Shown here: positions 52,930 to 62,708 of the stretch, in pieces
Layout: each line of letters begins with the position of its first letter
Position numbering within the stretch: the stretch's first letter is position 1
Source of the DNA: Bacteroidetes bacterium GWF2_41_31
GTDB lineage: Bacteria > Bacteroidota > Bacteroidia > Bacteroidales > F082
Direction of reading: 5' to 3'
Assembly (NCBI GenBank): GCA_001769215.1
Contig: MEOL01000050.1
Span: 124,001 to 188,000, forward strand
DNA: 64,000 nucleotides
Notes under the pieces: model-generated
Seen by the model: the letters and a program-made list of their open reading frames with translations, nothing else
What the model was told of the DNA's origin: nothing
Database searches by the model: none
Translations under genes and position numbers: made by a program

Positions 52930-53066
52930 TACCCGAAAAGGGTATGACCTGAGTATTTTGCGCATATTTATACCCTAAAAGGTATAATACTTAATATTCT
53001 TAATAAACGCATACCCGAAAGGGTATATTTATACAATATTGTATTATATTTGTACCCAAAAGGGTA
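52930..53066. promoter_or_regulatory. four evenly spaced operators and -7 element of hipBST
   Basis: Four copies of the palindrome TACCC-N4/5-(G/A)GGTA lie at 52930-52944, 52971-52984, 53012-53025 and 53053-53066. Their centres are 40.5, 41 and 41 bp apart, about four helical turns, so all are on the same DNA face. A perfect -7 element TATATTTG (53045-53052) abuts the last copy, so that operator covers the predicted transcription start. This is expected for autorepression by the HipB-like protein, which recognises palindromes as a dimer. Confidence 0.8.
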
Positions 53067-53071
53067 TAAAT

Positions 53072-53278
53072 ATGAACTTGGCAACTTTTGTAAAGGAAAA
53101 ACGTAATTCAGTTCAGCTCACACAGCCGGAGTTGGCAGAGAAAGCGGGTGTTGGCTTACGTTTTATAAGAGAACTGGAACAAGGAAAGGAAAGTATGCGG
53201 TTAGATAAAGTAAATCAGGTGCTGCTACTTTTTGGATATGAAGTAGGCGCTGTTCCTGCTAAAAAAGAAAATGAGTGA
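53072..53278 (+). CDS. hipB: HipB-like antitoxin/repressor (HTH)
   Basis: A 68-residue XRE-type helix-turn-helix protein (VKEKRNSVQLTQPELAEKAGVGLRFIRELEQGKESMRLDKVNQVLLLFGYEV), of the y4mF/HipB kind. The ATG at 53072 is used; the open frame extends upstream to 53039, but that part contains the last operator. It overlaps the next gene by one base (TGATG). It is expected to bind the four upstream operators and to neutralise the toxin complex. Confidence 0.88.
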   Translation: MNLATFVKEKRNSVQLTQPELAEKAGVGLRFIRELEQGKESMRLDKVNQVLLLFGYEVGAVPAKKENE

Positions 53279-53607
53279 TGAGAAAGGCTGCCATAAAAAT
53301 AGATAAACAATTGGCCGGATGGCTTACGCAAGATGAAGGTGGATATCATTTTGTGTATGATAAAGCCTATTTAGTTACCTCACATCCCAGGCCGGTTAGT
53401 CTTACATTGCCCTTGCAGGAAGCCACAACTACCTCCAATGTGTTATTCCCGTTTTTTGACGGTCTCATTCCTGAAGGATGGTTGTTGGATATAGCTGAAA
53501 AAAACTGGAAGCTAAACCCCAGGGACAGAATGGGTATACTGCTGGCTTGTTGTAAAGATTGCATTGGGGCTGTAAGTGTGGAAGAAATTAAGGAGGATAA
53601 CGAATGA
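53278..53607 (+). CDS. hipS: HipS-like protein, HipA N-terminal subdomain
   Basis: A 109-residue protein equal to the N-terminal subdomain of HipA (GWLTQDEGGYHFVYDKAYL, PRPVSLTLPL, FPFFDGLIPEGWLLDIA). In E. coli O127 the separate HipS protein is the antitoxin that blocks the HipT active site. Trp68 in PEGWLL could play the role of the Trp known there, but this is inference. The ATG at 53278 overlaps the hipB stop, so the three genes are coupled. Confidence 0.82.
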   Translation: MRKAAIKIDKQLAGWLTQDEGGYHFVYDKAYLVTSHPRPVSLTLPLQEATTTSNVLFPFFDGLIPEGWLLDIAEKNWKLNPRDRMGILLACCKDCIGAVSVEEIKEDNE

Positions 53608-54545
53608 ACCGTTGTTTATACTGTTACAAGTTGTTGGAAAATAGAGAACAGGACTTTCACTCCTCCTGTTCTAAAAAAATATTTGGTCAACCAAACCCTC
53701 CGGCATTACTTTATTCGGAAGCAGATTTAGATTCTTTGGCAAGAGAGGTGATACAAAGCCAAACGGCTGTAACCGGTGTACAGGCAAAAATATCGCTACA
53801 CATTACAGGAAATATGAATGATCAGAAAGGACGAAGGTTTACCATTGTAGGACTGTGGGGTGGTTATATATTAAAACCACCTACTGCAATGTATCCTCAT
53901 TTACCAGAAGTGGAAGATGTTACCATGCACCTGGCTGAGCAGGCAAAAATAAGAACAACTCCGCATAGTTTAGTTCGGCTGGCATCGGGCAATCTGGCGT
54001 ATATCACCAAACGGGTCGACCGGACAAAAAATGGAAAACTGGCCATGGAGGACATGTGTCAGTTAACAGAGCGGCTTACAGAAGATAAATATCAGGGTAG
54101 TTATGAGCAAATAGCTAAGGCGATTCAGAAATACTCATCTACACCAGGTTTGGATGTGGTGAATTTTTTTGAGTTGGTACTATTCTCCTTTTTAACCGGT
54201 AATGCCGACATGCATCTGAAGAATTTTTCCTTGTTGGAACAGCCGGGTTTAGGAATGATTTTATCTCCGGCCTACGACCTGGTTAATACAACACTGGTAA
54301 ATCCTGATGATGATGAAGAGTTGGCGCTAACTTTAAATGGCAAAAAGAAAAAAATAAAGAAACAGGATTTTGTTGCAGCTATGAACACCATGAAAATGGA
54401 AGAAAAACAGCAAGAGAATATTTTTAATAAAATGGAAAAGGTTCAATCCAAATGGATGGAGCAAATAGAGGTCTGTTTTTTGAGTAATGAATATAAACAG
54501 CAATATAAAAGTCTCATTTTGGAAAGATTTAACAGAATGTTATAA
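53604..54545 (+). CDS. hipT: HipT-like serine/threonine kinase toxin
   Basis: A 313-residue kinase corresponding to HipA without its N-terminal subdomain, overlapping hipS by 4 bp (ATGA). The N-terminus has a zinc-finger-like pattern C4-x2-C7...H19-x2-C22. The glycine-rich loop reads AVTGVQAK (55-62). Catalytic D202 and N207 are in GNADMHLKNFSLL, and the metal Asp225 in SPAYDLVNTT. HipT kinases phosphorylate tRNA synthetases (TrpS in the E. coli O127 system) and stop growth. The autophosphorylation motif, SxS in E. coli HipT, is AVT here. Confidence 0.88.
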   Translation: MNRCLYCYKLLENREQDFHSSCSKKIFGQPNPPALLYSEADLDSLAREVIQSQTAVTGVQAKISLHITGNMNDQKGRRFTIVGLWGGYILKPPTAMYPHLPEVEDVTMHLAEQAKIRTTPHSLVRLASGNLAYITKRVDRTKNGKLAMEDMCQLTERLTEDKYQGSYEQIAKAIQKYSSTPGLDVVNFFELVLFSFLTGNADMHLKNFSLLEQPGLGMILSPAYDLVNTTLVNPDDDEELALTLNGKKKKIKKQDFVAAMNTMKMEEKQQENIFNKMEKVQSKWMEQIEVCFLSNEYKQQYKSLILERFNRML

Positions 54546-55107
54546 GAAGTGAGACAACAGATTTTAATCCTTCCTGCGACCTTGCTTTGTCATGGTAATC
54601 GCTTTCTCGTTGCTTCCCGTCACCCGTAGATCCCCCAGCATTTGAAACAGCTTTGCAAGCAGATTCAAATTCTGACGCTGCTCATAGTTTATGCTCGCCT
54701 GCGGTCGCTTCCAGCTGCGTTGCTGTCATGGTTTTTGTACTACCCGAGGCTTACCCCAGAACAAAAACAACGCCAGCGCCTTGCGTAAACGTAGTGGAAA
54801 ACGCCTTCGGCTCCCTTTTCCACACCGGAAGCTCAACTCGCGGGCGGCTCACGTTGGGAATATTAAGTATATTCGGCAGCGTTTTCTTCTTACAGGTGTT
54901 TGTATCGGTAATATTTTCCACGCAGTATTGTAGGTTGGTTTTTTGTAAATGTCCTTTTATTATGTTTAATTTAAACATTTATGATAATTCATATAAAACT
55001 GATAACCAGCGTATATCAAATGTATGATAAAATTAATATTAACTTATGGTTAAAGTTATTGTTTTTTGTCGTATACTTGCAAAGAATTTTATTGAAAGGT
55101 GGATGTT
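54546..55107. other. non-coding stretch with a GC-rich patch
   Basis: No gene is supported here. The part from about 54560 to 54920 is clearly richer in GC than the AT-rich flanks, and contains short palindrome-like pieces, while overlapping reading frames lack conserved character. From 54930 to 55107 it becomes AT-rich, with a -7-like TATACTTG at 55072-55079 before the next gene. Confidence 0.45.
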
Positions 55108-55878
55108 ATGAGAAACTCTTTTGTTGAGAATGATTTAGTGACCCTTGGTTCCTTGGTTTTTAATGAATCACTGCCTTCATATGATTGTGACTTACGCGAA
55201 AATATCTTGCATTTTAGTGTGGCAAATAGGGTCTTCTCAAATAGTTTTCCTAGGAATGAGGAAGTATCATTCAATTTTCCTTTTGTCTTTCATGATCTTA
55301 AGAAAGAGATTCCCTTAGCACCATTTTTTAAGAAAAATCAGCTCGCTAAACCGGACGATACTTCTAATTGGTTTGTTAAAAGTAGTGATGTTGAAAACAG
55401 CCAATTTATTTATGAAAATCGTAGTTTACTTGTAAAGCTTGAGGAAAAGAAATTAGAAAAGCAAAATAGACTATTGCAGCAAAGTATTTCTGAGCTTAAT
55501 TCTGATTTCTTTTTTCAAGAGAAGCATAATCAAAATGACTATTATGCTTGGAACCCATATTTTAGTATCCATGAAGCTAAGAGTTTCTTTGAAGCCCTAA
55601 CTGAGTTTATTTGTTATAAGGTAATTTCCAATAGGGATGAAATTAGTACTCTTAAAAGTCTTTCTAAATGGCTTAAGATCAGCCTTAAAAAGATCGCCTT
55701 AAGATTTAAGCTGTTATGTTTAGATATTAGATCCACTTTCAGAAAAATTATTCAAATTATTTTCAAAAATCTGGATGATTCACATGATAAGTTTGTTGAA
55801 AATTTTGAAATCAACAAATTAGTAACATTTAATCTGATACCTTATCATGAAAAAAATAAAGAAAGAACTTTTAGTTAA
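55108..55878 (+). CDS. unknown AT-rich accessory protein, helical C-terminus
   Basis: A 256-residue protein not recognised. The ATG at 55108 (MRNSFVENDLV) is preferred over a GTG at 55099. The N-terminal half (about 1-110) is mixed polar with FDF-like repeats and looks globular beta; the middle has a probable coiled coil (about 112-140, KLEEKKLEKQNRLLQQSISEL). The rest is helical, with WLKISLKKIALRFKLLCLDIRSTFRKIIQII, basic and amphipathic, and perhaps membrane-associating. It overlaps the next gene by 32 bp. Base composition is AT-rich, unlike core genes, suggesting horizontal transfer. It could be the effector of a toxin-antitoxin or defence cassette; this is inference. Confidence 0.6.
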   Translation: MRNSFVENDLVTLGSLVFNESLPSYDCDLRENILHFSVANRVFSNSFPRNEEVSFNFPFVFHDLKKEIPLAPFFKKNQLAKPDDTSNWFVKSSDVENSQFIYENRSLLVKLEEKKLEKQNRLLQQSISELNSDFFFQEKHNQNDYYAWNPYFSIHEAKSFFEALTEFICYKVISNRDEISTLKSLSKWLKISLKKIALRFKLLCLDIRSTFRKIIQIIFKNLDDSHDKFVENFEINKLVTFNLIPYHEKNKERTFS

Positions 55879-56047
55879 TGCTCTTAACTCAATAATAAAT
55901 AATGAAAACAACAGTGTTTCAATTAATGATAAAGAAATACTCAAAATATACAGAGATCAGTTGATCTTTGAAAACAATATCGATAAAATAACCAAAATTG
56001 TCCTTGCATTAAGCAAATGGTTTGTGTTGATTATGACTAATGATTAA
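55847..56047 (+). CDS. 66-residue unknown protein of accessory cassette
   Basis: A small protein, MKKIKKELLVNALNSIINNENNS..., helical, acidic/basic mixed, with a hydrophobic C-terminal patch (KIVLALSKWFVLIMTND). The start overlaps the upstream gene by 32 bp and ends 12 bp before the HTH gene. The overlap suggests a tight functional unit. Function unknown; an antitoxin-like or adaptor role is possible. Confidence 0.5.
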   Translation: MKKIKKELLVNALNSIINNENNSVSINDKEILKIYRDQLIFENNIDKITKIVLALSKWFVLIMTND

Positions 56048-56059
56048 ATTTATAATGAT

Positions 56060-56353
56060 ATGAATGTCGGAGCGACTATTAAACGTTTAAGGAAAGACAG
56101 AAATTGGACTCAAGAATATTTTGCAAGTGAGATTGGTATATCGGTGACATCACTTTCTCTAATTGAATCTGGATCAACACGTCCAAACAAAAGCACAATG
56201 AATAAAATTTGTGAAGTTTTTGGCATCGCTGAATCATTTCTATATGTAATGAGTATTTCTGAAGAGGATGTTCCAGATAATAAGAAAGAAGTATATCGAA
56301 TATTAGCTCCAAATTTGAAAATTATTGTTGAGCAGCTTACTGAAGGCAATTGA
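56060..56353 (+). CDS. XRE-family HTH regulator
   Basis: A 97-residue protein with an N-terminal HTH of the Cro/C1 type (GATIKRLRKDRNWTQEYFASEIGISVTSLSLIESGSTRPNKSTMNKICEVFGI) and a 30-residue C-terminal part (DVPDNKKEVYRILAPNLKIIVEQL). It ends the cassette and probably represses it or senses a signal. The C-terminal tail may bind the upstream proteins. Confidence 0.82.
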   Translation: MNVGATIKRLRKDRNWTQEYFASEIGISVTSLSLIESGSTRPNKSTMNKICEVFGIAESFLYVMSISEEDVPDNKKEVYRILAPNLKIIVEQLTEGN

Positions 56354-56591
56354 TATTTATTGTGTTTATACCCCATTTATGTTAAGACATATCTCCCAGT
56401 CGGATTTCATCCTCCCTCTGGAAGACCCTCCCTCAGTCGCAACGGTCGCAGGAATAGTTAGTGTCAGGAGAGGAATTTGAAAGACAAATCTTCCTGTCCA
56501 CTACGATTTATATTTGGAACTAAAATACTCATTTTCATAACGTAACCCGCCATAAAATATAAGCACCTTCAATATTACAAGCGACTAACTA

Positions 56592-60368: not shown

Positions 60369-61140
60369 GATTTAGGCTATTATTATTTCACTAGAAGTTA
60401 ATTTGGTATTTTTAAATGCGCTCCTAACGGGAAGCATATGCTTTGTGGCGACGAATTCCCCATAAAGTTTATGTATAAACTGCTCTGCATGATTCCTTGG
60501 TTAATTCAGTTTGTTCAAGCCCTGTTCTAGTCGGTTAGTTTTGAAGCAGAACAAATGTAGTAATATTTAGGATGTGCGTATGATTTCAGATGAATTTTCT
60601 CATATTCCCCTCTTGCAACATGCGCCTGAGAACTACCACATTATACCCACAAACATTTGTAAATAGATTTTGGCTTGTTGACGTTCGGAGGGAGTGATCG
60701 TGAGCCCGTGATTTGAGTACTCAGAAAGATTTTACCCCTTGCGTGTTTTAATAGCCAGACACTCTGTGCCGGAAAACCAAACTCATTTTGGGGTATAAAT
60801 TGTATCGTTGAAGTGACGATTTCACCTCTGTAAGCGAAGATAGCTGCGTGCGGCCATTCCTCAAGGGTATATGAATGCGGTTGGAAGAGTTGGTGAGATG
60901 GTATTGAAGAGGAGATAGTCGCACCCTTGACCAATAGCCTCACTCCGCAGGAAGGATGCTAAGAGGTGAAATCGGAAGAAGTGTGAATTTATTAATTTTG
61001 AATTTTTATTACTAACCAGTCTGGTTCTTTGAAAAGAATTTCGGAACAAATTAGGGTCAAATCATCCCTTAACTTGAACCGTACCTTGCACGCAAGTAGC
61101 TTAAAAGATGCAGTTCTTTAGTTAAAAGATTGATATTCAG
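60369..61140. other. gene-free stretch left of the attachment-like region
   Basis: About 770 bp with no convincing gene. Reading frames on the minus strand (for example at 60641-60943 and 60861-61049) overlap each other, lack recognisable domains and have odd composition, so they are not called. There may be remnants of mobile DNA, but no transposase was recognised. Confidence 0.4.
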
Positions 61141-61406: not shown

Positions 61407-61474
61407 TTTGTATTTGTTCATATTATTTGTACTTTTGTGTGCAAATGGTGTGCAAATGATAAGGATTTGCACAC
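61407..61474 (+). promoter_or_regulatory. integrase promoter with direct and inverted repeats
   Basis: TTTG (61407-61410), a 19-bp spacer and TACTTTTG (61430-61437) fit the promoter consensus perfectly. Right after lie two tandem copies of GTGTGCAAATG (61437-61447 and 61448-61458) and an inverted copy ATTTGCACAC (61465-61474). These cover the transcription start and could be sites for integrase or repressor binding. Confidence 0.7.
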
Positions 61475-61490
61475 ACCTAAAAGGCAGTAT

Positions 61491-62708
61491 ATGAGTACAA
61501 ATATAAGGATTGTATTAGATACAAGATTCGAAAAAGTAGACCAAACCTACCCGTTGATCATTAGAATCTCGCATAACCGGAGAAATGTCTCTATTCCATT
61601 GGGATATTCATTGCTCGAAAAAGACTGGAATGAACAATCCAAGGAGGTGAAAAGTTCTTTCAAAGGAGTGTCAAATGTCACCCGCTTAAATAAACTTATC
61701 CAGCAAAAAAAAATCAACGCAATGGATATTGTAAATCAATTGCAAGATAGCGGTGAAATTGAAAATCTTACGGTCAAAGAGATCAAATCTCGCATTATTA
61801 GCCAGCAGAGTGAACAAACAGTTTTTTCATTTACCGAACAACTGATCGCTGAATTAAAAGATGCGGGACGCTATGGATATGCAAGATCAATAAATAACAC
61901 TTTACAAGCAATTAGAAAGTTCTCTTCAGCAAAGGACTTCACATTTAAACAACTAAATTATCAGTTTTTAACGAAGTTTGAAAACTCCTGTCTTAAAGAC
62001 GGTTTAAAGATTAACTCCATTGCCGTATACATGAGAACCACAAAAATGATATACAATCGGGCAATAAAAGCAGGTATTGTAAAAAGAGAACTGTATCCGT
62101 TTCTGGGGTTCACTATTAAAACAACAAAAACAATGAAGCGGGCTGTAAGACGTGAGGTTATTGAGCTGATCGAGAAATTTGAACCTGCGGTAAATACGCG
62201 AATTTGGCATGCCAAAAATTACTTCTTGTTTAGCTTCTATGCGATGGGTATCAACTTTGCCGACTTAGCTCGTTTAAAAAAGAGCAATATTGTTGAAGGA
62301 CGTTTAGAGTTTACCAGGCAAAAAACAAAAAAGGATTACAGTATAAAAGTCAATAAGGCAATTCAAGAAATACTTGACCTTTATTGCACCAATAAACAAG
62401 AGGATGACTATATCTTTCCAATTATTACCAGAGCGGGAAATCGCGAATTAGAATATCGTGATGTATCAGAAAAGCGCAAGATATATAACCAAATGCTCAA
62501 AGAAATAGCCAACCTTTGTGGAATAGAAAGCAATCTGACCAGTTATGTTGCCCGCCATTCCTGGGCAACCATAGCAAAAAGAAAAGGAGTTCCTGTTGCC
62601 GCCATAAGTGAGGGAATGGGGCATGGAGATGTCAAAACCACTGAGATCTACCTTGATAGTTTTGATAAAGAAGTTCTGGATGATTTTAATGATTTGATTA
62701 CCGGATAA
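61491..62708 (+). CDS. tyrosine recombinase / integrase
   Basis: A 405-residue phage/ICE-type integrase of the Bacteroidota group with a SAM-like core-binding domain (about 100-200) and catalytic domain. The catalytic Arg occurs in GINFADLARLKKSNI, the YVARHSWATIAKRKG box stands for the HxxR motif (Tyr for His, common in this group), and GHGDVKTTEIYLDSF contains the nucleophile Tyr. The frame is open from 61437, but the ATG at 61491 (MSTNIRIVLD) is used because upstream codons lie in the operator region. It should catalyse integration and excision of the element at the tRNA fragment. Confidence 0.92.
   Translation: MSTNIRIVLDTRFEKVDQTYPLIIRISHNRRNVSIPLGYSLLEKDWNEQSKEVKSSFKGVSNVTRLNKLIQQKKINAMDIVNQLQDSGEIENLTVKEIKSRIISQQSEQTVFSFTEQLIAELKDAGRYGYARSINNTLQAIRKFSSAKDFTFKQLNYQFLTKFENSCLKDGLKINSIAVYMRTTKMIYNRAIKAGIVKRELYPFLGFTIKTTKTMKRAVRREVIELIEKFEPAVNTRIWHAKNYFLFSFYAMGINFADLARLKKSNIVEGRLEFTRQKTKKDYSIKVNKAIQEILDLYCTNKQEDDYIFPIITRAGNRELEYRDVSEKRKIYNQMLKEIANLCGIESNLTSYVARHSWATIAKRKGVPVAAISEGMGHGDVKTTEIYLDSFDKEVLDDFNDLITG

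Follow-up and report, generated by a model that had tools for sequence, protein, structure and literature searches.

A rare Bacteroidota operon, probably related to the helper genes of type VI retrons but without a reverse transcriptase

Introduction

Type VI retrons, a class reportedly named by Mestre et al. in 2020, carry an XRE-family regulator between a small protein of 68-84 aa and a retron reverse transcriptase (RT). XRE regulators also occur in type II toxin-antitoxin systems such as HigBA and the HipBA-like systems. In the literature searched, which did not extend to the founding paper, we found no effector described for type VI retrons, and the parts of the literature within that scope (PMC8541194, PMC8934634 and PMC12548924 included, most subscription papers beyond it) yielded no RT-less relative of these retrons.

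Here, we describe a three-gene operon (the trio) that, of all known systems, comes closest to the type VI retron. In both, a small protein (SP) with a hydrophobic C-terminal helix is encoded directly 5' of a related XRE that has ~92-111 aa and a C-terminal extension similar in the two systems, and the SP profiles match; in contrast to the retrons, the trio has no RT nearby, carries a further gene (gene 1) upstream, and its XREs fall outside the retron group in a phylogenetic tree. With type II toxin-antitoxin systems (HigBA, HipBA-like) it shares a short operon, an XRE protein and, among trio relatives, a promoter palindrome, but it shows no known toxin fold, comprises three genes and has its SP-XRE pair in common with retrons. 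Judged by these sequence comparisons, the trio is conserved, lacks the RT and is related to the helper genes of type VI retrons, and we place it among the relatives of type VI retrons with high confidence; because the RT is absent, it is not itself a type VI retron.

The trio locus

The window, meaning the whole stretch of 64,000 nucleotides analysed from Bacteroidetes bacterium GWF2_41_31, contains the trio, whose three genes form an operon and share one promoter region:

55108..55878, + strand: gene 1 (P0001, 256 aa), with an N-terminal part without relatives, a C-terminal basic helical segment and the tail motif FKNLDDSH
55847..56047, + strand: gene 2, the small protein SP (P0002, 66 aa), with a hydrophobic C-terminal helix
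56060..56353, + strand: gene 3, an XRE-family regulator (P0003, 97 aa; HTH_3, E 7e-15)

Genes 1 and 2 overlap by 32 bp, and a gap of 12 bp separates genes 2 and 3. This layout agrees with an earlier note on the same DNA in coordinates, lengths, overlap and gap, and two features of the surroundings reported there are likewise correct, namely the AT-richness (28.7% GC in the kilobase at 55-56 kb, the lowest in the window, against 34.5-46.2% for the remaining 63 kilobases) and a hipBST operon directly 5' of the trio (53039-54545), identified by Couple_hipA and HipA_C matches. Further along, a tyrosine recombinase gene occupies 61437-62708. The first two proteins had gone unrecognised, and profile searches of Pfam, PHROGs, NCBIfam and PADLOC also gave no significant match for either, the best of the weak matches having E-values of 0.025 and 0.0009, of which the second falls well short of its family cut-off. 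Among 198 relative genomes, gene 1 and gene 2 found only weak matches outside the window, and P0001 alone found zero relatives in 84,980 species.

Distribution of trio and retron loci

The trio operon is rare but conserved, and scattered across Bacteroidota: its gene order recurs in 16 other loci (15 distinct), and every identified host is a member of this phylum. Including the window there are 17 trio loci, of which 16 are distinct because L073 repeats L060. The earlier note had proposed a compact unit and named absence of co-occurrence in other genomes as the finding that would speak against it; the three genes do co-occur elsewhere, so the proposal stands, and each of the 16 distinct XREs classed as trio-type is directly preceded by a small gene and a larger one.

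These loci were gathered mainly through the XRE. At E 1e-12, P0003 matched three proteins outside its own genome among the 198 genomes, each within an operon that combines an XRE with a retron RT and a protein of 72-80 aa, which PADLOC labels HTH_VI, RT_VI and SP_VI, respectively. An XRE profile matched 16 of 395 phylum genomes, comprising five trios (window, L057, L059, L060, L062), ten retrons and one other locus (L063), and a species-wide scan with trio XREs returned 12 loci, ten of them trios (L065-L074) and two with other XREs. Furthermore, a trio XRE profile matched 10 of 395 class genomes, comprising three trios (window, L062 again, L079) and seven retrons (two already seen). Viral contigs gave no match with the first XRE alignment; a larger XRE profile recovered five loci from the viral collection, one a trio (L091) and four with weak XREs. 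XREs of neither trio nor retron kind (L063, L075, L076) came out of the same searches.

Searches of plasmids with the XRE gave at least two records with a neighbour annotated as reverse transcriptase. For example, an Aureispira plasmid (L086, NZ_AP026869.1 37540-43821) carries a type VI retron-like operon of small protein, XRE and RT, near a recombinase and a MazEF-like pair.

Absence of the reverse transcriptase

An RT profile run on both strands matched 18 of 18 retron loci (three of them, L006-L008, having trained the profile, and L086 coming from a plasmid), none of the 16 other trio loci and nothing in the window; the sequence covered reached ~1.5 kb past the XRE match in L057, L059, L060, L062 and L079, and 0.5 kb in L091. 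The genome of the window has no RT_VI match at all. This absence, together with the homology of the SP-XRE pair, is what would be expected if the trio were a type VI retron whose RT had simply been lost in this genome. We regard such a loss as highly improbable, as all 16 other trio loci are RT-less as well and have gene 1 in common in place of the RT, and trio XREs lie outside the retron group.

The XRE regulator

P0003 matches the PADLOC model HTH_VI with 69 bits over residues 2-92, within the 58-79 bits of trio XREs. These scores are not proof of retron type, since three control XREs that are neither trio nor retron reach 52-56 bits; the scanned trio XREs match to near the C-terminal end of the model, whereas the controls stop earlier. 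Phylogenetic analysis places the 15 trio rows and the 12 retron rows on opposite sides of a branch with support 97/94 (L082, whose operon is cut by a contig start, was left out of the XRE tree). With outgroups added, and with L073 omitted for having the same XRE as L060, the retron rows stay together (93/75) and trio rows form clade A (100/97) and clade B (96/87). The window falls in neither clade, with a weakly supported placement, and no single clade of all trio XREs receives support.

The small protein

Trio and type VI retron SPs are linked by profile comparison, with a probability of 91% (P 9e-7) over 57 columns and a score of 34.9, compared with a maximum of 14.2 across 60 column-shuffled controls; for a smaller set the probability was 73%, over 26 columns. 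The comparison was made without L073 (XRE identical to that of L060) and without the SP of L074, and the SPs of L052, L054 and L064 were left out of one SP alignment, that of L074 out of another. Moreover, the C-terminal hydrophobic segment is similarly placed in the SPs of trios and retrons, and the SP of L067 matches SP_VI directly (E 0.002). P0002 itself matched neither the profiles of other SPs nor any PADLOC model, and is placed as SP by its position, length and C-terminal hydrophobic segment.

Gene 1, a fast-evolving protein

At least two types of gene 1 can be told apart among the trio loci. Members of type A (window, L057, L062, L065-L068, L071, L072) have in common only a helical, basic stretch and a tail, FxFKNLDDxH, which ends gene 1 in the window and eight other trio loci. 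Type B (six distinct: L059, L060/L073, L069, L070, L074, L079) has an IF2_N-like domain at the start, the fold comparison covering L069, and a HYYIFTDDED-like stretch near the end. Gene 1 of L091 is a third form, placed in neither type, and types A and B show no profile similarity to each other (probability 1.3%). No publication was found for the letters of the tail motif, most subscription papers being beyond the scope of that search.

A type A profile built from the eight other proteins, with the window left out, placed P0001 at the top of 3158 frames (E 1.9e-7). This value is softer than it appears because the match carries a large bias term of 14 bits; the runner-up frame was at E 0.0056. 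At E 0.001, the gene 1 profile matched 4 of 395 class genomes, namely the window, one trio (G315) and two others that were set aside as chance, L090 resembling a sigma factor region and L089 a TPR protein by their listed frames. No relative of gene 1 was found among plasmids with P0001, among phages with the L065 protein, or among viral contigs with either type.

AlphaFold modelled gene 1 from seven sequences with a mean pLDDT of 46.5, too low for the model to enter a fold search, and two of the alignments left out L057 and L062. The predicted structure of the type B protein of L069 was confident in the N-terminal part only. The top structural matches of L069 were IF2 N-terminal domains (Z 6.1 over 69 residues, rmsd 2.9, a Z that can be commonplace), the IF2_N sequence match of this type being weak (E 0.052), and Foldseek with L069 gave no match at E 0.001. 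A PDB sequence search with profiles of gene 1 type A, gene 1 type B and SP returned nothing convincing (best E 0.28, 0.032 and 0.22, respectively). Taken over family, structure and PDB searches, no enzyme motif or fold was found in gene 1.

With mean best z of -2.2 and -2.5, upstream folding is alike in trios and retrons, so that a leftover ncRNA is conceivable in the trio loci; an Rfam search of the window gave no match. In retrons, the non-coding RNA is expected upstream of SP, which is the position of gene 1, and gene 1 itself could be read as a retron-like msr-msd RNA in which the open frame arose by chance. The codon data contradict this, leaving it barely credible: in relatives, gene 1 has dN/dS of 0.25 and 0.29 with third-position changes dominating, the tail motif is conserved as protein while synonymous codons vary, and the 256-codon frame is beyond chance, the longest in 1000 dinucleotide shuffles of 54900-56360 being 155 codons. 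Gene 1 in the relatives is protein-coding and under purifying selection, and it is a fast-evolving protein.

Promoter region

Two candidate elements lie upstream of gene 1 in the window:

55039..55053, no strand assigned: candidate operator TTAACttatgGTTAA, with 5-bp arms, weak alone
55072..55079, + strand: candidate -7 box TATACTTG, with one mismatch to TAnnTTTG

TAnnTTTG is the -7 box consensus; of the 15 other distinct trio loci, 14 have it in the 80 bp 5' of gene 1. A palindrome, AAGTnnnACTT, is found in the same 80 bp in 8 of the 9 clade-A loci other than the window, 22-41 bp 5' of gene 1 and mostly overlapping the TAnnTTTG box, against a background of 0.0015 per 80 bp; the exact palindrome is absent from the window and from L062. 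Its presence at the promoter of these eight loci suggests that the operon is probably autorepressed, with gene 3 as the putative promoter-binding protein.

Proposed function

A toxin-antitoxin-like defence module would be the likeliest reading of the trio. We propose, with confidence a little short of even, that it is an RT-less sister of type VI retrons, toxin-antitoxin-like and probably anti-phage, in which gene 1 replaces the RT-msDNA. How the labour might be divided is a more tentative matter. Gene 3 would repress the operon, and SP, with its hydrophobic C-terminal helix, would be a growth-arresting, probably membrane-acting effector, a role it may also have in type VI retrons. Gene 1 would act as sensor and controller in place of RT-msDNA: a phage or stress cue would be met by the variable N-terminal part, and SP or gene 3 would be contacted by the conserved tail at the C-terminus. 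SP would then be set free by a phage that interferes with gene 1 or with the repressor.

The toxin-antitoxin or defence reading of the earlier note fits the link to retron helper genes and the promoter palindrome of the relatives; the note had missed the relationship to type VI retrons and the attC-like site described below, and its order of large effector and small partner may be reversed. Kept as it was, that order gives a type II-like toxin-antitoxin system with gene 1 as toxin, SP as antitoxin or folding partner and gene 3 as autorepressor. We consider this rather unlikely: it would suit the compact operon, the palindrome in relatives, the adjoining hipBST and the standing of gene 1 as the largest and most divergent product, but type VI retrons retain SP and XRE without gene 1, so that these two form the shared pair, and the family, structure and PDB searches found no enzyme motif or fold in gene 1.

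That the RT-less sister retains both SP and XRE points to these two as the working core. It is conceivable, if doubtful, that this core exists in two forms, checked either by RT and msDNA, as in type VI retrons, or by a fast-evolving protein. If so, a toxin-like core would predate type VI retrons, which would represent one of its plug-ins, and the trio would show that core under a different guard. An RT-less sister would also make the role of msDNA in type VI retrons directly testable through a controller swap.

Neighbourhoods of the trios

Among 50 of the 57 listed neighbouring proteins, from ten trio loci, a scan identified a CBASS set (all beside L072), a CHAT protein and a Vsr endonuclease, plus housekeeping genes, and several trios adjoin housekeeping rather than defence genes. 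The trio of L091 stands near a CI-like repressor in a contig of the viral collection. XRE and small proteins are common in phages, and with this copy they could suggest a regulatory or accessory module of a mobile element, concerned with lysogeny or transfer control rather than defence. Most copies, however, sit on bacterial contigs in dissimilar places with few phage genes noted, and the trio is tied to retron helper genes; we judge the mobile-element reading improbable next to a toxin-antitoxin-like defence module.

In L072 (4617-7900), the CBASS set of 2TM effector, cyclase and E2, with a LexA/S24-like gene, is directly 3' of the trio, at a distance of ~1.2 kb. The trios of L057, L067 and L071 lie directly 3' of an S-adenosylhomocysteine hydrolase gene (for L057, from the tail of the upstream frame), possibly an insertion hot spot.

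An attC-like site and its genomic context

Behind the window's trio lies a repeat with 43 matches in the same genome:

56434..56578, + strand: decayed attC-like recombination site, oriented like the trio and scoring 82.9 bits against a model built from 18 copies in the genome

Several of its stem pairs are broken, and it begins ~80 bp 3' of the trio. Cassette ends complementary over at least 8 bases and starting with GTT were found for 8 of 14 neighbouring repeat pairs less than 2 kb apart, versus 1.1% of 910 others; from such features of the letters, we class the genome repeat as an attC-like integron site. The trio resembles integron gene cassettes in having this site behind it in the same orientation and in belonging to a genome with cassette arrays, but it does not now qualify as one, the site at its 3' end being decayed and no attC-like site matching just 5' of it.

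With TIGR02249, the integrase encoded at 61437-62708 scores 38 bits where the cut-off is 265, so by this model it is no integron integrase, and no integrase in the genome reaches the integron cut-off. A second, short attC-like hairpin (60418-60488; 25 bits, E 0.0002) is located ~950 bp 5' of this tyrosine recombinase gene. More broadly, integron cassettes form a scattered array in this Bacteroidota genome, which has no canonical integron integrase; examples are at L021 (7148-16366), L022, L023, L025, L027 and L028, and several contigs of the genome end within the array.
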